DNA from: Synergistaceae bacterium
Lineage (GTDB): Bacteria; Synergistota; Synergistia; Synergistales; Aminobacteriaceae
Assembly (NCBI GenBank): GCA_012521675.1
Contig: JAAYLU010000091.1
Coordinates: forward strand, 1-34,285
DNA: 34,285 bases
Reading direction: 5' to 3'
The notes below the pieces were generated by a model. It made no database searches. It was not told where the DNA came from and was given only the letters and a program-made list of their open reading frames with translations. The position numbers and the translations under genes were made by a program. Positions within the stretch are counted from its first letter, which is position 1; the number at the start of each line of letters is the position of its first letter. Shown here piece by piece: positions 9,020 through 17,178 of this stretch.

Positions 9020-10222
9020 CTACTTGCCGAGGTATTGCATTGGGTCCTTCGCCTCGCCGTTCACCCTGACCTCGAAGTGAAGATGCGCCCCGGTGGTGGT
9101 CCCGGTCATGCCGACCACGCCGATCGTCTGTCCCGTTTTCACCCTGTCCCCCTCGCCCACGTCGAGCCTTCCGAGGTGGGCGTACACGCTTGAAAGCGAC
9201 CTGCCGTGGTCGATTATTACGATCTGGCCGTAGCCCCTCAGCCATCCGGCGTAGAGAACCTCCCCCGGACCCGCCGAATACACGGGAGTGCCGTTGGCCA
9301 TCCTTATGTCGATTCCCGTGTGCATGATGCGCGTCTTGAAGGTGGGATGCACCCTCATACCGAACTTGCTGACGATCTCCCCCCTCGACGGCAGCGGCCA
9401 GGCCAGTTTTCCCCCCGACGGAAGCTCCTCTCGCCGGGTCGGCGGCTCCGGCTTGCCGGGGAGCATCTCCTTCTCCCTCTTCTTCTTCATGAGATCCATT
9501 ATGGTGGCCTGTATCTCTCGCTGGGAGTCCTGGAGCTCCTTGACCGCCTTCTGGTGCAGGTCGCGCTCGCTCCTCACCTTCTGCAGAAAGGCGTTGCTCT
9601 CCGCTATCTCCTTCCGGTAGGTCATCCTGCTCTGCTCGAGGGCGGCGGCGTTCGCAGCGAGCTGCCTTCGCTCCTCTTCAAGCTGGACCACGGCCTCGCC
9701 AAGACGCTCCTTCTTGGAGAGCATGTCCGTTATCATGAGCTCGTCCTGCTGCGCGATGCGGTTCAGCAGCAGGGTCGTCTCCATCGCCTCGTGAGCTGTG
9801 GATGCGGACAGCAGCAGGTTGAACTCGGCTATCCCGCCGTACTTGTAGATGTTCAGGAGCCGCCCCTCGAGCACGCTCCTCATGGAGTCGAGTTCGCACT
9901 CGGTGGCCTGGATCTCGGCGTTGAGCTCCTCAACCGTCTTCTTGGCCTTTTCGTTCCTCAGCTCAAGGACGCGGATGCGCTGCTCAGTCAGGTTCTTCTT
10001 CTGGTCCAGATCCTCTATCCGGGAGATGACTCCCTGCTCCCTTTCGCCTATCTGCTTGACCCGATTCTGATGCTCCTTTATCTGTCGTTCGAGGGCCCTC
10101 ATCCGGGCCTCCTCCTGGACGAGCTTCGAGTCAAGACCGGAGTCCCCGGTGGCCGGACAGGGCAGGAGCAGTCCGAGCGCGACGGCGAAGACCGCGAGTA
10201 GGCGAACTTTATTCAACTTCAC
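9020..10222 (-). CDS. envC: EnvC-like murein hydrolase activator with M23 (LytM) domain
   Basis: Exported protein of 400 residues acting in the periplasm. A signal peptide (about 1-26) is followed by long coiled coils (about 28-255), a linker, and a C-terminal LytM/M23 domain. This layout matches EnvC, which FtsEX recruits to activate septal peptidoglycan amidases. Unlike E. coli EnvC, whose LytM site is degenerate, the metal and catalytic residues appear intact: His301 and Asp305 (HTGID), His349 (YAHL), and His380 and His382 (HLHFEV). It could therefore be a direct endopeptidase. It lies 33 bases after ftsX, which supports the FtsEX partnership. The start is GTG at 10222, preceded by a weak GGTGG. 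Confidence 0.92.
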   Translation of the reverse strand: MKLNKVRLLAVFAVALGLLLPCPATGDSGLDSKLVQEEARMRALERQIKEHQNRVKQIGEREQGVISRIEDLDQKKNLTEQRIRVLELRNEKAKKTVEELNAEIQATECELDSMRSVLEGRLLNIYKYGGIAEFNLLLSASTAHEAMETTLLLNRIAQQDELMITDMLSKKERLGEAVVQLEEERRQLAANAAALEQSRMTYRKEIAESNAFLQKVRSERDLHQKAVKELQDSQREIQATIMDLMKKKREKEMLPGKPEPPTRREELPSGGKLAWPLPSRGEIVSKFGMRVHPTFKTRIMHTGIDIRMANGTPVYSAGPGEVLYAGWLRGYGQIVIIDHGRSLSSVYAHLGRLDVGEGDRVKTGQTIGVVGMTGTTTGAHLHFEVRVNGEAKDPMQYLGK

Positions 10223-10255: not shown

Positions 10256-11140
10256 TCACCTCGAGCGCATGCCCCTGGCGGTGAAGCGGCTGACCGCGAT
10301 CCAGCTGCACATCCATCCGGTCGTGGCCCCCGCCCCGAACAGGAAGAGGAAGAACTGCCCGAGGATCTTCGGGTCGACGATTATGTCCACGAATGCCAGG
10401 GAGGAGCGTATCACCTCCACGGCCGAGGCGTAGGTGCTCGCAAGTCCCAGGATGGCGAGGGCCGCGCCGCCCGCGCCCAGGAACATGCCCTGGAAGACGA
10501 AGGGCAGCGATATATATGTCGAAGTGGCCCCTATCAGGACCATCACCTCTATCTCCTCCTTGCGCGAGTAGATGGCGATTCTTATCGTGTTGAAGATGAC
10601 CAGTGTGCTTATCAGCAGGGTGAACATCAGCACTATGCCAGAGACGGTGGCCGACGTCCTCGAGAGGTTGGCAAGCCTCTCGACGAGCTTGCCCGCATAG
10701 AGCACCTCCTCGACCGACGGCATCACCATGAGATCCCTGACAAGAGGGGTGATGTGCTCCGCCTTCCGCACCTGGATCTCCAGGCTCCAGGGCAGGGGAT
10801 TCTCCCCGAGGAGCGTGATGGCCCGCGCCTGGTTGCCCAGTTTCGCCCTCAGCCTCTCGAGCGCCTCCTCCGGGCTTATCGCCGCCACGGATGCGACCAG
10901 GGGGGACGACTCCATCAGCTCCAGCGCCCGATCCGCACTCTCTCCCCTCTTCATGTAGGCCTGCACCACCATCGCGCCCTCTATGCGAGAGATCATGTAC
11001 CTGGTGTTCATGGCGAAGAGAGAGGCGAATCCAAGAATGTACAGCACCGACGCGGCCGTCAGCAGCGTAAGGATGCTGAGCCCCCAGTGCCTGAAGAGCA
11101 GCCTGAAAGTATCCCTGAGGGCGTATCTAAAGCTCGCCAT
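10256..11140 (-). CDS. ftsX: Cell division ABC transporter permease FtsX
   Basis: Inner-membrane protein of 294 residues with the FtsX layout: a cytoplasmic N-terminus, TM1 (about 22-44), an extracytoplasmic loop (about 45-165) that in other bacteria contacts the EnvC or NlpC/P60 hydrolase partner, and three more membrane segments (about 167-190, 212-240 and 258-280). With FtsE it passes ATP-driven conformational changes to periplasmic peptidoglycan hydrolases at the division site. The ATG at 11140 has GGGAGG 10 bases upstream and overlaps the end of ftsE by 14 bases, the usual coupled arrangement. Confidence 0.95.
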   Translation of the reverse strand: MASFRYALRDTFRLLFRHWGLSILTLLTAASVLYILGFASLFAMNTRYMISRIEGAMVVQAYMKRGESADRALELMESSPLVASVAAISPEEALERLRAKLGNQARAITLLGENPLPWSLEIQVRKAEHITPLVRDLMVMPSVEEVLYAGKLVERLANLSRTSATVSGIVLMFTLLISTLVIFNTIRIAIYSRKEEIEVMVLIGATSTYISLPFVFQGMFLGAGGAALAILGLASTYASAVEVIRSSLAFVDIIVDPKILGQFFLFLFGAGATTGWMCSWIAVSRFTARGMRSR

Positions 11141-11822
11141 CTACGAAATACCTCCCCCTTCTCTCGTCTCGCCTGGTGCGCCCGTTGTGCAGTTCTACAA
11201 GTCGCTGCCTGTACGAATCGACCAGGTGCTGGTCGTGGGTGGCCACTATCACGGTGGTCCCCGCCGCGTTTATCGAGAGCAATAGCCTCATGATCTCCTC
11301 GGAAGTGCGCAGATCGAGGTTTCCCGTGGGCTCGTCGGCCAGGAAGACCGAGGGGGAGTTCACCATCGCGCGCGCTATGGCCACTCTCTGCTGCTCGCCC
11401 CCGGAGAGCTGCGGCGGCCTGAGGAACCTCCTGCGCCACAGCCCCACCTGGTCTATCACCTCGTTGGCCCTGCTCTCCACCAGCTTGGGAGGTATTCCCA
11501 TCGCCTCCAGCACGAAGGCGACATTCTCGAACACAGTGTAGTTCTGCAGGAGCTTGAAATCCTGGAAGACCACCCCTACCTCCCTCCTGTAGTAGGGAAG
11601 CTCCGAGGAGCGCAGTTTCCTCAGGTTTCGGTCCCCGACGCTTATCTGTCCCCTGGTGGGCAGGTACTCCCGCGATATCAGCCTCAGCAAAGTCGTCTTT
11701 CCGGAGCCGGTCATGCCGATGAGGTATACGAACTCGCCGCTGTCCACCGACAGGTAGATGTCCTCCAGGGCGACAATTTCCGGCTCGAATACCTTTGTCA
11801 CGCCTGACAAGCGTATATCCAT
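11127..11822 (-). CDS. ftsE: Cell division ATP-binding protein FtsE
   Basis: ABC-type ATPase of 231 residues, the cytoplasmic partner of FtsX. Walker A is GMTGSGKT (36-43), the signature is LSGGEQQRVAIARA (about 139-152), Walker B runs into FLADEPTGNLD (about 160-170) and the switch histidine is in VATHDQ. Walker A has GMTGSG where many FtsE proteins have GPSGAG. The ATG at 11822 has AGGAGG 6 bases upstream; this ribosome binding site is formed by the last two Arg codons and stop of the preceding transketolase-like gene, so the two are tightly linked. Confidence 0.97.
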   Translation of the reverse strand: MDIRLSGVTKVFEPEIVALEDIYLSVDSGEFVYLIGMTGSGKTTLLRLISREYLPTRGQISVGDRNLRKLRSSELPYYRREVGVVFQDFKLLQNYTVFENVAFVLEAMGIPPKLVESRANEVIDQVGLWRRRFLRPPQLSGGEQQRVAIARAMVNSPSVFLADEPTGNLDLRTSEEIMRLLLSINAAGTTVIVATHDQHLVDSYRQRLVELHNGRTRRDERRGRYFVDGEL

Positions 11823-11825
11823 GCA

Positions 11826-12770
11826 CTACCTCCTGCGCATTATCCAGGCCTGCATGGCCTCGCTGACTATCTGCGAGGCCGTGAGCCCGTAATATTCCTT
11901 CAGCTCCCGGGGTGTTCCGCTCTGGCCGAACTTGTCGAAGACGGCCACCATCTTGACCGGTACCGGGTAGCTGCCGGCCGTCAAGGAGGCCACAGCCTCG
12001 CCCAGCCCCCCCGCGGATATATGTTCCTCGGCCGTGACACAGCAGCCCGTCCTTCTGACCGAGTCCAGGATGGCCTGGGCCGGAAGCGGGGAGAGGCTGT
12101 AGCAGTCGATGACTTCGGCGCTTATATTCTGGCGGGAGAGCACCTCGGCGGCCTTTACAGCCTCGCTGACCATGATACCACAAGAGCATATCGTGACGCT
12201 TCCTCCCTCCCGAAGGACCCTTCCTCCCCCCAGGGAGAAGGAGTCATCCCCGTCCTCGTAGACGTCGGGAACAGGAGCTCCGCTCAGGCGGATGTAGACT
12301 GGCTTGCCGTACGAGGCCGCGGACTTTATCAGAGCGAGAGCCGATGTGTGGTCGGCGGGCGTCACCACTGCCATGTCCGGCAAAGCCCGCATCAGGGCCA
12401 TGTCCTCCAGCATCTGCCTGCACGCGCCGTCCGGACCGGCGGACAGCCCGGAGTCAAGCCCGACCAGCTTGACCGGAAGAGACGGAATGGCCACCGCAGC
12501 CCTTACCTGGTCGTAACCCCTGCCTGCGAGCAGCGCGGCGTTTCCCGCGACGAAGACGTTCTCGCCCCCGAGGGACATGCCGGCGGCGGTCAGGATCAAA
12601 TTCTGCTCCCCCGCCCCGGCATCGAAGAACCTCCCCGGCACGACCTCCGCCATCCTCGACGCCCATTCGCCCTCCTTCGCGCAGCCCACGACGGCGATCT
12701 TCTCATCGGAGGCCGCCAGCGAAGACAAGGCCTGTGCGAATGAATCCATCATGCTTCTCTCGACACTCAT
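11826..12770 (-). CDS. Transketolase-like C-terminal half, probable pseudoenzyme subunit
   Basis: The 314-residue product aligns by eye with the C-terminal subunit of split transketolases (pyrimidine-binding plus C-terminal domain). GAGEQN keeps the thiamine-activating glutamate (Glu55), and GRGYDQVR, DMALMRALP and YIRLSG are family landmarks. However, the catalytic histidine normally found in the ATHQ-type motif is Arg118 (ACRQ), and the SHAG-type motif reads LDSG. With its partner's changes this suggests loss of transketolase activity. The ATG at 12770 overlaps the stop of the N-terminal half by 4 bases (ATGA) and has GGGAGG 7 bases upstream. A divergent 1-deoxyxylulose-5-phosphate synthase or other thiamine enzyme is possible but would need the same residues. 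Confidence 0.85.
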   Translation of the reverse strand: MSVERSMMDSFAQALSSLAASDEKIAVVGCAKEGEWASRMAEVVPGRFFDAGAGEQNLILTAAGMSLGGENVFVAGNAALLAGRGYDQVRAAVAIPSLPVKLVGLDSGLSAGPDGACRQMLEDMALMRALPDMAVVTPADHTSALALIKSAASYGKPVYIRLSGAPVPDVYEDGDDSFSLGGGRVLREGGSVTICSCGIMVSEAVKAAEVLSRQNISAEVIDCYSLSPLPAQAILDSVRRTGCCVTAEEHISAGGLGEAVASLTAGSYPVPVKMVAVFDKFGQSGTPRELKEYYGLTASQIVSEAMQAWIMRRR

Positions 12771-13564
12771 AGCACACCCTCCCCGTTCAGCTCCGACAGA
12801 GCCATGTCGACTCTCTCCCTGTCGGGGACCTTCCGCTCCGCGCAGGGATCTCCCTCGAGGAACGAGACCCCCTTGCCGAGAACCGTGCGGGCGAAGATGC
12901 ACAGGGGGCCCTCGGCCCGGGACAGTGCCTTGAAGGCCGCTCCTATCGACGCGAAGTCGTGCCCGTCGCACTCCTCCGTGCGCCACCCGAAGGAGCGAAG
13001 CTTATCCCCGGTGGAGGGAGAGCCACCCCTAGTCTCGAACAGAAGCACGAGGTTGTCCAGTCCGAAGCGCGGAGAGGAGGCGGCCGCCTCCCAGAAGACT
13101 CCCTCGCGTGCGTCGTCCTCCCCCGTCAGGCAGAACACGGACGACGAGACCCTTCTTCCGCGAAGGGACAGGGCGAGCCCGTTCGCTATTCCCAGCCCCA
13201 TGCCGCGGGAGCCTCCCCCGGGGGCGTCTACCCCGGGAATCCGCAAGGCAAGAGGATACCCCTGCAGCATCGCCCCGAGACGCCTGTAGCTCCATAGCTC
13301 GTCCCTCTCGTAGAAGCCCTTGCCGGCAAGAGTCGCGTAGAGAGCGGGCGCTCCTTCCCCCCTGCCCAGCACGAACCTGTCCCTGGTCTCCAGCCAGGGG
13401 CTGGACGGGTTGACCGACATCTCCTCCCAGTAGAGCCATACTAGAATATCCACTATGGAAAGAGAGGCGGAGAGCCATCCCGAACGGGCCAGCCCTATCA
13501 TGCGCACGACATCGCGCCTTATCTCCGCCGCCTTCGACATCAGAAATGAATTGCCGGCAGTCAT
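12767..13564 (-). CDS. Transketolase-like N-terminal half with degenerate thiamine site
   Basis: The 265-residue product has the framework of the N-terminal (thiamine diphosphate-binding) half of a split transketolase: EIRRDVVRMI, RDRFVLGRG, APALYATL, LQGYP, PGVDAPGGG, FWEAA, DGHD and GKGVSF all align. The functional residues do not. The GHPGG-type histidine is Trp30, the SKGHA histidine is Glu70, the QGHP histidine is Tyr103, the GDGE Mg/thiamine motif reads GEDD (147-150), the following DRNG motif reads ETRG (177-180), and the late WHGK-type histidine is Glu243. The ATG at 13564 is preferred over the ATG at 13585 because AAGGGG precedes it. It lies 4 bases after csaB. The fold appears maintained, so a structural or regulatory role is inferred. 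Confidence 0.85.
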   Translation of the reverse strand: MTAGNSFLMSKAAEIRRDVVRMIGLARSGWLSASLSIVDILVWLYWEEMSVNPSSPWLETRDRFVLGRGEGAPALYATLAGKGFYERDELWSYRRLGAMLQGYPLALRIPGVDAPGGGSRGMGLGIANGLALSLRGRRVSSSVFCLTGEDDAREGVFWEAAASSPRFGLDNLVLLFETRGGSPSTGDKLRSFGWRTEECDGHDFASIGAAFKALSRAEGPLCIFARTVLGKGVSFLEGDPCAERKVPDRERVDMALSELNGEGVL

Positions 13565-13568
13565 ACCC

Positions 13569-14597
13569 TCACTCCCCTTGGTCATCTAGCAAAGCCCTCG
13601 AGCAAAGCTCTCCGAACACTCTCTGAAACTCGAGCCTTTCATCCGCACGGCCCTTGACCGGCATACCGGGCGGGGGCAGTCGACCTGCGCCGCTCCATGC
13701 CGGGATTTTCCATGCCTCTGCCAGTCCCGCGACCTTCGGGTCGTACGGGACAACGGTCAACGGACGGTCGAACAGCAGCGCCAGCACCGAGGCGTGGAGG
13801 CGCATCGCGATCACGCCGACGGCGGCGCCCATAAGAGTCCGGCACTCGTCTCGCCAGTCGCCCGCGTCCAGCAGGACGATCCTCTCTGCCGGGAAGACAC
13901 CCTCCTCCCTCAGCCCCTCCATCACTGAGAGGTCCTCCCGCGCCAGCGCAAGGCCGACGACGGCGGCCCGGGCGGACAACGCGTAGTCGCAGGCCGCGAC
14001 GGCGGTTCGACGGGGCAGATCCCCCTCCCACGGGCGGATGTTAACCAGCAGGAACTCCCCCCGCCCCGTCGTCGACGGCACCGCAAGGGAGAAGGCCGGG
14101 TCGCACGTCAGGCGGGAATCCAGCCCCCACTCTCTTAAAAGCTCCGCGGACCCTGCGTCCCTCACGCCGCGGACGGAACAGCTTCCCAGGGCGGATCTGG
14201 CCAAACGCTCGGAGAGCGACGACTCGAACGGGCCGACCGACTGCCCCGCGCACCAGGGGCGCGCCCCCGCCATCAGCGCAATCCTGACCACTCCCCAGTA
14301 GTACAGGGGCGAGCGCATGCTCGTCGCGTCCTGAAAGAGCCCTCCGCCTCCCAAGAGGAGGGTCTCGCTCCTCTTAAGCACCCGGTACACCTCGACCGGC
14401 GACCACCTCGACACGGCCCTGACGCCGTGCAGCCGGGCGGAGCCCTCCGGATCGGAGGAGAGCATCGCCACTTCGCTTCGAGGCACGCCGTACCTCTCGA
14501 GTGAATCGAGCAGTGCCTCGGCAAGAAGCTCGTCACCAAGGTTGCCAAAACCGTAATACCCGCAGAGGGTGACCTTCAGAGAGCGCTCCGCCCTCAA
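13569..14597 (-). CDS. csaB: Polysaccharide pyruvyl transferase CsaB-like protein
   Basis: Cytoplasmic transferase of about 342 residues, predicted to add ketal pyruvate to a cell-wall polysaccharide, the modification that anchors SLH-domain surface proteins in some bacteria. CGYYGFGNLGDE at the N-terminus and LLLGGGGLFQD near residue 80 are CsaB hallmarks; a second Rossmann-like half ends with MRLHASVLAL and VVPYDPKV. The TTG at 14597 overlaps the preceding stop as TTGA. The conserved region actually begins at LKVTLCGYYG, where a CTG at 14579 has GGAG 6 bases upstream, so a CTG start (336 residues) is possible. It follows the DUF5693 gene, its frequent neighbour. Confidence 0.9.
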   Translation of the reverse strand: MRAERSLKVTLCGYYGFGNLGDELLAEALLDSLERYGVPRSEVAMLSSDPEGSARLHGVRAVSRWSPVEVYRVLKRSETLLLGGGGLFQDATSMRSPLYYWGVVRIALMAGARPWCAGQSVGPFESSLSERLARSALGSCSVRGVRDAGSAELLREWGLDSRLTCDPAFSLAVPSTTGRGEFLLVNIRPWEGDLPRRTAVAACDYALSARAAVVGLALAREDLSVMEGLREEGVFPAERIVLLDAGDWRDECRTLMGAAVGVIAMRLHASVLALLFDRPLTVVPYDPKVAGLAEAWKIPAWSGAGRLPPPGMPVKGRADERLEFQRVFGELCSRALLDDQGE

Positions 14598-16582
14598 CCC
14601 GTCATCATCTTTCCGTGCCTGGTCCAAAGGGGCAGGATCAGCATCTTGAGCATGAGAAGGCTGACCGTGCCGACGAGCAATCCCGTCCACAGCCCGTTGA
14701 ACTGCCTGAACAGGATGAAGTGCAGCGGCGTGTGGAAGTGGCAGAAGCTGTTGACCGCCGACGAGAAACCCACCACCGTGGCCAGGCGAAAGACCTCCCT
14801 GTAGCGGGGCCACATGTCGACCCTGCGGACGAAGTACCAGATCAGCAGGGCCGGGTAGCCTAGGAAGACCTCCTTGCTCCTGGGGCGGGCCACCAGCGCT
14901 CGCTCAAGCATCTCCCTGACCCTCACCTCGAAGGCCGGCACGAACTGGACGTTGTCGCTTCTGAAGAGAACAAGCACCGCACCCCCCAGCAGCAGGGCCA
15001 GCAGGATCATCTCGCCCCAGAGCGGAGGCCTGCGGAACAGCTCGACGAGCGACTCCGGGTGCTCGCGGCTTTTGAAATCGGCCAGGAGCAAGAGCAGAGG
15101 CGGCAGGAAGAGAGTGGCCTTGACCCCCGAGAATGTCCTGAGGCGCAGCATGAAGAGAGGGTCGCTGAAGAAGGCCGCTATGGCGAGGCCGCCCGCGATC
15201 ACGAAGAGGAAGCTTCCGAGTATCCCGAACCAGGGCCTTCTCCACGAGTCCAGCGCGATGAACGAGGCCTCGGTCACGAGCAGGACAGCGGTCAGGGCCC
15301 CAGCCGAACGGGCCGCCGCCGGGACGAACAGGATTAGCATCCCGGTCAGGACGACCATTCCGCCGAACACCATCAGGCCCCTTCCCGAGCCCCTCCAAGC
15401 CAACGATGCGCCCGTGTCACCAGATGCGCCCGCGATGAACCTCTGAAGAAAGCGGAGCGCTGTGAAGACGAGCGCCAACGAGAGGGCCAAGGCGCCGAGG
15501 ACTCCCGTGCGCCACGGCTGATACGGCTCGGGCCAGCTCAGCGCGACGCCGGAAGAGGAGATATTCGAGGCGAGGAGGTGCAGCTCCTGCTGGAAGAAGT
15601 CGAATTGGCCGCTTGAGACCTCGATAGCGGACGGGCGGAAGACGAGCAGCCTGATCGCCCTCTCCTTGACCGCCCTCATGAACCTTTCGTGAAGCCCGAT
15701 CCGCGTGATGCCCCTGCTCAGTATCTCCTCGTTGGTGACGCTGTGCAACGGTATGAGCCTGGGATAGGCCAGCCAGTTCAGCTGAACCGCTCCTACCTGC
15801 CGAGAGAACTCCACGGCCGCCACCGATCGGTCGTGCCTTCTTATCACGTCCGCCAGGGGGCGAAGGTCGGGATAGCCGAGCGCGACCTCCGCGGAGGGGG
15901 ATACGGTGCGGATCTGGGGGAAAGAGAGAAGCAGGGACTCCAGGGTTGTGAGAGAACCGCCCGTGTCCGGCGCAAGAGCGGGCGCGGGCCTGTAGAACAC
16001 CGGTATGTCGTGCTTGGATGCCAGCAGCAAGCCATCCACGTCCGGGACAACTCCGGTCAGCAGAAGCTCGTCCAGCGTCCTGGGCAGCAGCACGGCCGTC
16101 CCCGTCTCGAACTCCTGTATGAGGACCCCTTCGAAGCGCGCGTTCAGAAGAGGGGGCATCATCTCTGCCCCGGGGAAGCCCTTCGGGATGAACATTGACG
16201 CCTGCATCGGATTACCCGCCGCCAGCTTGGGCGCCGCCCCCGGCAGGCCCGACGCCGGCCCGTAGTAGAGCTTCATCGCCCCCAGGGAGAGCTGCTGTCC
16301 TGTCAGCTCCGACACCATCAGCCCCATCGCACCGCTCTGACGCAGTATCAGCCAGAGCTCCTCGTCGCTCCTTCCCTCCCTCTCGGAGAAGGCCGCTAGG
16401 TCGCGATAGTCCAGCACGATAGCGGCGTTCCTGGCCTCCTTCTCCGCCGCGAGCCTGGGCAAAAGGGCGGGGATCGAGAGCATCGCCAGCAGGATCGCCA
16501 CAATCAGGGCGGGCCGGACGCGCGCCACCTCGACGAGCCCGGAGCCCCTTCCAGTCTCCTTGCCGAATTCCCTATTATTCAT
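14594..16582 (-). CDS. DUF5693 family multi-spanning membrane protein
   Basis: Inner-membrane protein of 662 residues resembling the DUF5693 family, often encoded next to csaB. One membrane segment near residues 25-45 is followed by a large extracytoplasmic domain (about 50-355) and then roughly eight membrane segments to the C-terminus. The soluble domain has repeated patterns such as GITRIGLHERF and VDGLLLASKHDIPVFY, reminiscent of a TIM-barrel-like fold. No catalytic motif is recognised. Partnership with CsaB suggests a role in making or exporting a pyruvylated envelope polymer, but this rests on context only. The ATG at 16582 has GGAGG 8 bases upstream and overlaps the maf stop by 4 bases (ATGA). 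Confidence 0.85.
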   Translation of the reverse strand: MNNREFGKETGRGSGLVEVARVRPALIVAILLAMLSIPALLPRLAAEKEARNAAIVLDYRDLAAFSEREGRSDEELWLILRQSGAMGLMVSELTGQQLSLGAMKLYYGPASGLPGAAPKLAAGNPMQASMFIPKGFPGAEMMPPLLNARFEGVLIQEFETGTAVLLPRTLDELLLTGVVPDVDGLLLASKHDIPVFYRPAPALAPDTGGSLTTLESLLLSFPQIRTVSPSAEVALGYPDLRPLADVIRRHDRSVAAVEFSRQVGAVQLNWLAYPRLIPLHSVTNEEILSRGITRIGLHERFMRAVKERAIRLLVFRPSAIEVSSGQFDFFQQELHLLASNISSSGVALSWPEPYQPWRTGVLGALALSLALVFTALRFLQRFIAGASGDTGASLAWRGSGRGLMVFGGMVVLTGMLILFVPAAARSAGALTAVLLVTEASFIALDSWRRPWFGILGSFLFVIAGGLAIAAFFSDPLFMLRLRTFSGVKATLFLPPLLLLLADFKSREHPESLVELFRRPPLWGEMILLALLLGGAVLVLFRSDNVQFVPAFEVRVREMLERALVARPRSKEVFLGYPALLIWYFVRRVDMWPRYREVFRLATVVGFSSAVNSFCHFHTPLHFILFRQFNGLWTGLLVGTVSLLMLKMLILPLWTRHGKMMTG

Positions 16583-17178
16583 CGAGCATTCCTCCACTGC
16601 TCGGCCAAGGAGCAGCCGAACTCTTCCAAAAGTCCGCTCAGACCGCGGAGCGGCAACCCGACCACGTTGAAATAGTCGCCCTCTATGGAGGAGACGAGCA
16701 GCGCTCCTCGCCCCTGGATGGCATAGGCGCCGGCCTTGTCGTCCCCCTCCCCGCTATCGACGTAGGCCATCGCGGCCTCGGGGGATAGGTGTCGAAACAC
16801 GACCCTCGTCTCCTCCACCGCGAACCTCTCCTCGCCCCCCCGCCTCACGGCGATGCCCGTGAAGACGCTGTGCGTCCTGCCGCTCAGCAAGGAGATCATC
16901 CTGAAGGACTCATCCCTGCCGGAGGGCTTTCCAAGGACATTCCCGTCCAAGGACACCAGCGTGTCCGCCGCTATGACCACGCTGCCCGGATTTCTGCGCA
17001 CCGCGTCCCCGGCCTTCGCCCGGGCGAGGCGGACCACCGCGTCCCTCGGCAACTCTCCGTCCAGCAGCTCCTCGCACACGTCCGCCGCATCCGTCCTGAA
17101 CCGCCAGCCGAGCGAACTCAAAAGCTCTCTGCGCCTGGGGCTGGCCGACGCCAGCACCAGGTCTAACGGGCCAACCAA
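16579..17178 (-). CDS. maf: Maf-like nucleotide pyrophosphatase
   Basis: Cytoplasmic house-cleaning enzyme of 199 residues that hydrolyses non-canonical or excess nucleoside triphosphates to monophosphates. The N-terminal LASASPRRREL (substrate loop), IAADTLV (catalytic aspartate) and GKPSGRDES are family signatures, and DKAGAYAIQG followed by GDYFNVVGLPL forms the conserved C-terminal part. The TTG at 17178 gives a normal-length protein and overlaps the DUF4321 gene by 16 bases; the ATG-like codon further up (17217) would overlap it by 55. GGAGGAG lies just upstream. In Bacillus, overexpressed Maf blocks septation, which fits a division cluster. Confidence 0.92.
   Translation of the reverse strand: MVGPLDLVLASASPRRRELLSSLGWRFRTDAADVCEELLDGELPRDAVVRLARAKAGDAVRRNPGSVVIAADTLVSLDGNVLGKPSGRDESFRMISLLSGRTHSVFTGIAVRRGGEERFAVEETRVVFRHLSPEAAMAYVDSGEGDDKAGAYAIQGRGALLVSSIEGDYFNVVGLPLRGLSGLLEEFGCSLAEQWRNAR

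Follow-up and report, generated by a model that had tools for sequence, protein, structure and literature searches.

The closest described system to the gene pair considered here is the split transketolase of Carboxydothermus hydrogenoformans, in which one half carries the PP domain and the other the Pyr and C-terminal domains, with the two halves assembling as an α2β2 complex (6YAK/6YAJ, PMC7661550). The E1 component of pyruvate dehydrogenase (PDH), an active ThDP enzyme, belongs to the same superfamily and shows the same α2β2 division into subunits. The homologous C-terminal domain of its E1-β subunit docks the E2 partner protein. The vertebrate transketolase-like protein TKTL1, named in PMC12525540, is another relative. 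It is a transketolase paralogue with a changed active site and debated activity. Metabolic enzymes can also be tied to cell division, as described for UgtP and PDH E1-α of Bacillus subtilis (PMC8270655). Pseudoenzymes are a known kind of protein, as are transketolase-like proteins with altered sites such as TKTL1; a description of a bacterial pseudo-transketolase family, or of a transketolase adjoining ftsEX, was not found in the open-access papers searched.

The window, the whole stretch of 34,285 nucleotides analyzed here, is contig C91 of a 2.2-Mb draft genome whose relatives are Synergistota. It contains a minus-strand block encoding RNase J, UppP (BacA), Maf, a DUF5693 protein, CsaB, two transketolase halves, FtsE, FtsX, an EnvC-like M23 protein and a Ctp-type protease. 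The N half, TKn (12767 to 13585), contains the PP domain and likely starts at the ATG at 13564, as assumed in the initial annotation, with an alternative ATG at 13585 and the stop at 12767. The C half, TKc (11826 to 12770), contains the Pyr and C-terminal domains. Both reading frames are intact and share an ATGA stop/start overlap (12767 to 12770), and Pfam assignments of the neighbors together with synteny bear out the placement of the pair between csaB and ftsE, all as first described. The gene csaB (13569 to 14600, start approximate) encodes a polysaccharide pyruvyl transferase (Pfam PS_pyruv_trans, 1e-30), while ftsE (11127 to 11822) and ftsX (10256 to 11140; Pfam FtsX_ECD and FtsX) follow the pair. 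The DUF5693 protein upstream (14594 to 16597; Pfam DUF5693, 5e-100) has no assigned function and is a constant neighbor of csaB and the transketolase pair across families. The EnvC-like protein (9020 to 10222; Pfam Peptidase_M23) shows the HxxxD and HxH motifs of M23 peptidases, and a motif scan detected them in nearly all complete relatives. The EnvC protein of Escherichia coli has a degenerate M23 domain; with both motifs present, the EnvC-like protein of the window may, in contrast, itself cut peptidoglycan.

All three transketolase domains can be found in the pair, with Pfam scores above the cut-off for Transketolase_N (7e-20) in the N half and for Transket_pyr (6e-21) and Transketolase_C (6e-30) in the C half. 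The best NCBIfam equivalog, NF004559, gives 187 and 215 bits for the two halves; its cut-off of 488 was set for the fused chain, a value that the separate halves of a split pair are not expected to reach. AlphaFold models built from 33-member alignments show a pLDDT of 89 for TKn, with 6yak chain A as the top Foldseek match in the PDB (TM score of 0.89), and a pLDDT of 91 for TKc, with 6yaj as the top match (TM score of 0.91). The Carboxydothermus enzyme is the nearest solved relative of the pair, with about 40% identity, the same arrangement of domains on the two halves and the same predicted folds.

The active site, in contrast, is largely lost. Sixteen active-site positions were scored in yeast numbering, with their roles taken from PMC7661550 and PMC4601599, and the window shows W30, E69, Y103, E157, D162, R187, E263, M359, E386, E418, N442, L445, D469, D477, R481 and R528 at these sites, which leaves 3 of the 16 residues in place (E418, D477 and R528). 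The ligands of magnesium and the ThDP diphosphate, Asp157, Asn187 and His69 (PMC4601599, PMC7661550), are replaced by Glu, Arg and Glu; measured against the Carboxydothermus enzyme, the pair lacks the His, Asp148 and Asn178 ligands of cofactor and metal. The substrate-binding and catalytic histidines His30, His103, His263, His469 and His481 have become Trp, Tyr, Glu, Asp and Arg. Most of these losses had been read from the window before, and both pairwise and larger alignments place Trp30, Glu70, Tyr103 and Glu243 of the N half (numbered from the ATG at 13564) at His30, His69, His103 and His263. Alignment likewise bears out the change of GDGE to GEDD and of D-x-N to E-x-R in the N half, as well as Arg118 of the C half in place of His481. 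The initial annotation went too far only in naming the glutamate of the EQN motif as the sole residue retained. This residue, the catalytic Glu418 directed to the pyrimidine ring, is indeed kept as E55 of the C half, but so are Asp477 (D114), Arg528 (R161) and the lysine of a GKG motif (K238) in the same half. The same genome contains a transketolase with all catalytic histidines and magnesium ligands on contig C16 (locus L001), so that the pentose-phosphate function need not depend on the pair of the window. This second, intact transketolase is a fused chain.

Among 80 relatives searched at the protein level, every family sampled contains close matches. The gene order (UppP, Maf, DUF5693, CsaB) TKn-TKc-FtsE-FtsX-EnvC was found by tblastn with the window genes against fetched loci in ten families of the order, which are all those sampled. 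In a locus scan with one genome per GTDB species, ftsE lies directly 3' of TKc, with its start within about 110 nt, in 65 of the 69 named loci; of the remaining four, three are canonical pairs and one lies at a contig end. The pair is thus genetically linked to ftsE-ftsX-envC, and the synteny with ftsEX proposed as a check is kept among the orthologues. The ftsE-linked loci all belong to Synergistota, for example, Acetomicrobium hydrogeniformans, Thermovirga and Fretibacterium fastidiosum. A TKc profile finds matches at an E value of ≤1e-80 in 107 of the 183 genomes of the order, about 100 once the handful of canonical pairs is removed, and where the flanks are complete, neither half occurs without the other. 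In a tree built from 101 concatenated pairs, the 77 ftsE-linked pairs group as one clade (support of 0.94), set apart from the canonical split transketolases, including those in the same genomes. A canonical split paralogue, at L121 in genome G030, has an in-frame stop in its C half. Another canonical split pair, L214, groups close to the Synergistota pairs and has no neighboring ftsE; its record is titled Candidatus Methanomethylophilaceae archaeon, and either a transfer or mis-binning of the contig would account for it. The ftsE-linked pair can be lost: it is missing from some genomes within these families, which indicates that FtsEX as such does not require it. In five of these genomes, csaB directly adjoins ftsE, and the absence is clean, with the gene block otherwise preserved: L127 (G039), L141 (G074), L143 (G051), L144 (G068) and L152 (G023).

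The loss of catalytic residues extends across this clade. His263 is present in none of the 77 members compared to 24 of 24 canonical sequences, all 77 members have Arg528, and every other scored site is kept in some lineages and lost in others; even the catalytic Glu418 is lost in 16 of the 77. The most conservative members lack His263 only, with 14 to 15 of the 16 residues kept in Acetomicrobium, and at least 12 are kept in 19 of the 77 members, while the most eroded lineages keep 1 to 3. The number of retained sites also differs between close relatives, with 7 in L163 compared to 13 to 14 in its neighbors L161 and G006, G025 and G034. Separate losses were mapped on a tree of FtsE, FtsX, DUF5693, Maf, CsaB, EnvC and UppP, from which the eroding sequences themselves were excluded. 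Loss-only counting gives 15 losses for His30, 8 for His69, 21 for His103, 17 for Asp157, 19 for Asn187, 7 for Glu418 and 11 for His481, compared to 7 to 15 changes for the same seven sites under unordered parsimony, with both counts sensitive to the topology of the tree. Decay is therefore not limited to this strain, although the site is nearly complete in several orthologues. Neither are the substitutions of the window conserved in its orthologues, a question raised with the initial annotation: within the genus of the window, the position of His30 is occupied by W, R, R and H and that of His69 by E, D, R and R. Loss of the loop that follows Asn187 was considered as a common mark of the clade and rejected, since it arose from viewing only the columns present in the window and most orthologues keep the loop.

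Column identities separate three groups. In canonical enzymes, the catalytic columns show an identity of 0.80 compared to 0.49 for the other PP and Pyr columns; the 19 conservative members show 0.76 and 0.58, and the 47 eroded members show 0.20 and 0.41. The catalytic columns of the 19 conservative members still exceed their surroundings, and part of the family may hence still bind the cofactor or act as an enzyme. In most lineages, the former active site is unconstrained, and column comparison revealed no replacement residue common to the clade or to the genus of the window, which argues against a replaced catalytic center.

Constraint is instead found in the C-terminal domain (TKc residues 184 to 314; 11826 to 12221), which contributes no active-site residue and is the most constrained part of the pair in the clade. 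Its mean identity is 0.62 in the clade compared to 0.44 in canonical enzymes, while those of the PP and Pyr domains fall from 0.49 and 0.46 in canonical enzymes to 0.44 and 0.39. Similarity is higher in the C-terminal domain than in the PP domain for 2,847 of 2,850 clade pairs but for only 30 of 210 canonical pairs, the pairs within each set not being independent. The dN/dS values of close pairs, eroded members included, are mostly 0.04 to 0.25 for the PP domain and 0 to 0.12 for the C-terminal domain (Nei-Gojobori method, with some dS values saturated and very close pairs noisy). Judged by these sequence comparisons, purifying selection acts on the genes, and the constraint has shifted to the C-terminal domain. 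This domain contains the clade-specific residues C195, Q214, E219, C223, P230, S237, R240, C243, C244, E292, Y293, Q307, W309 and R312 to R314; one N-half residue, W98 (counting from the ATG at 13585), occurs in every clade member and in no canonical enzyme. The cysteines were considered as a possible Fe-S or metal site, but single ones are replaced one by one (by V, I, N, Y or T) while the others stay, which makes a strict common site of this kind unlikely. The invariant C-terminal Arg-Arg-Arg as a protein motif is largely explained by the ribosome-binding site of ftsE: the last two arginine codons of TKc, AGG AGG (11829 to 11834), coincide with the ftsE Shine-Dalgarno sequence in most of the 69 loci compared. 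The three arginines are nevertheless retained, through different codons, in loci with ftsE starting 44 to 109 nt away.

The clade thus shows a common origin, the loss of His263 throughout, erosion of the cofactor and substrate sites that occurred repeatedly and independently, and purifying selection, in other words, an enzyme fold kept by selection whose catalytic residues are lost, as expected of a pseudoenzyme. Of the two roles offered in the initial annotation, the maintained pseudoenzyme is well supported by the order-wide synteny, the selection on both genes, the independent losses and the lack of conserved replacement residues, whereas a new enzyme is not supported for the eroded members, in which the substitutions differ. 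The favored and probable explanation is a maintained family of pseudoenzymes, homologous to split transketolases and fixed upstream of ftsE in Synergistota, that acts as a scaffold and docks a partner through the C-terminal domain. The co-retention of both halves and their intact predicted folds suggest that they still assemble as the α2β2 tetramer of canonical split transketolases. Catalysis would be gone in most lineages, including that of the window, although cofactor binding may be retained in some. The partner would dock on the C-terminal domain and tail of this scaffold and is probably a product of the same gene block.

The weakest step is the choice of this partner, which gene order, the one line of evidence here, tentatively places in the neighboring FtsEX-EnvC or CsaB/UppP envelope module. 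Residues tracking the presence of the pair were sought in FtsE, FtsX, EnvC, CsaB and DUF5693, and none was convincing. A greater divergence of EnvC in genomes without the pair was also considered, but the difference nearly disappears with full-length EnvC. The role in division or envelope assembly proposed initially is therefore backed by gene order and not by covariation in FtsE, FtsX, EnvC or CsaB. It is possible, though still somewhat doubtful, that the whole order turned a split transketolase into a noncatalytic subunit of its FtsEX-EnvC machinery, or of envelope machinery linked to it, with the partner docking on the C-terminal domain and present lineages at stages from a nearly intact enzyme to a complete pseudoenzyme.

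The pair could instead still be an enzyme whose chemistry has changed, dependent on ThDP but with a different substrate in the conservative lineages and independent of ThDP elsewhere, and could supply a precursor of the envelope polysaccharide handled by CsaB. The constant neighborhood of csaB, uppP and the DUF5693 gene fits this proposal, as do the conserved cofactor site of 19 members and the invariance of Arg528, a substrate binder in transketolase (PMC4601599). It is nonetheless rather unlikely, as the active-site columns of eroded members vary above average with no common replacement, 16 members lack the catalytic glutamate, and constraint is greatest in a domain that is the source of no active-site residue. 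A ligand sensor, in which catalysis was lost with His263, ThDP or a sugar phosphate remained bound as a signal and the ligand was dropped in later lineages, would agree with the members that lack His263 only and with the metabolic enzymes UgtP and PDH E1-α gating division in B. subtilis (PMC8270655). The magnesium and diphosphate ligands are gone in many members, the window included, so that ThDP cannot be the common signal, and a sensor of this kind appears quite improbable.

A decaying relic kept mainly for the ribosome-binding site of ftsE at the 3' end of TKc would account for the AGG AGG codons and for the clean loss of the pair in several lineages, but it is very improbable given open frames in the complete pairs, purifying selection strongest in the C-terminal domain, and arginines retained through other codons where ftsE starts farther away. 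The good overall fold and family scores would suit an ordinary active split transketolase whose residues were misread through misalignment or sequencing error. This can hardly be correct, since the alignment to 6yak and 6yaj is clean and losses of the same kind recur in numerous unrelated genomes, among them the complete one of Fretibacterium fastidiosum.

The putative pseudoenzyme family stands apart from each of the systems described above. Compared to the Carboxydothermus enzyme, its clade shows a far more constrained C-terminal domain with clade-specific residues and is fixed beside ftsE. TKTL1 resembles it as a transketolase paralogue with a changed active site but is a single-chain animal protein with no known tie to division genes. 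PDH E1 binds a partner protein through its C-terminal domain, as proposed here for the pair, but this partner is E2, and the enzyme is active and not known to be linked to ftsEX. UgtP and PDH E1-α of B. subtilis (PMC8270655) offer an analogy only, as metabolic proteins acting on division that keep their catalysis and are encoded at unrelated loci.

Genes of this family probably carry transketolase annotations and are likely to be included by metabolic models among the pentose-phosphate enzymes. At a single fixed locus, the family offers a graded natural series from a near-intact enzyme to a pseudoenzyme, in which the proposed order of events, with the loss of His263 first and that of the cofactor site and the tightening of the C-terminal domain later, can be tested directly. 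Should the partner be FtsEX or EnvC, the pair would be a hitherto unrecognized component of the divisome in a poorly studied phylum whose members include the oral Fretibacterium.
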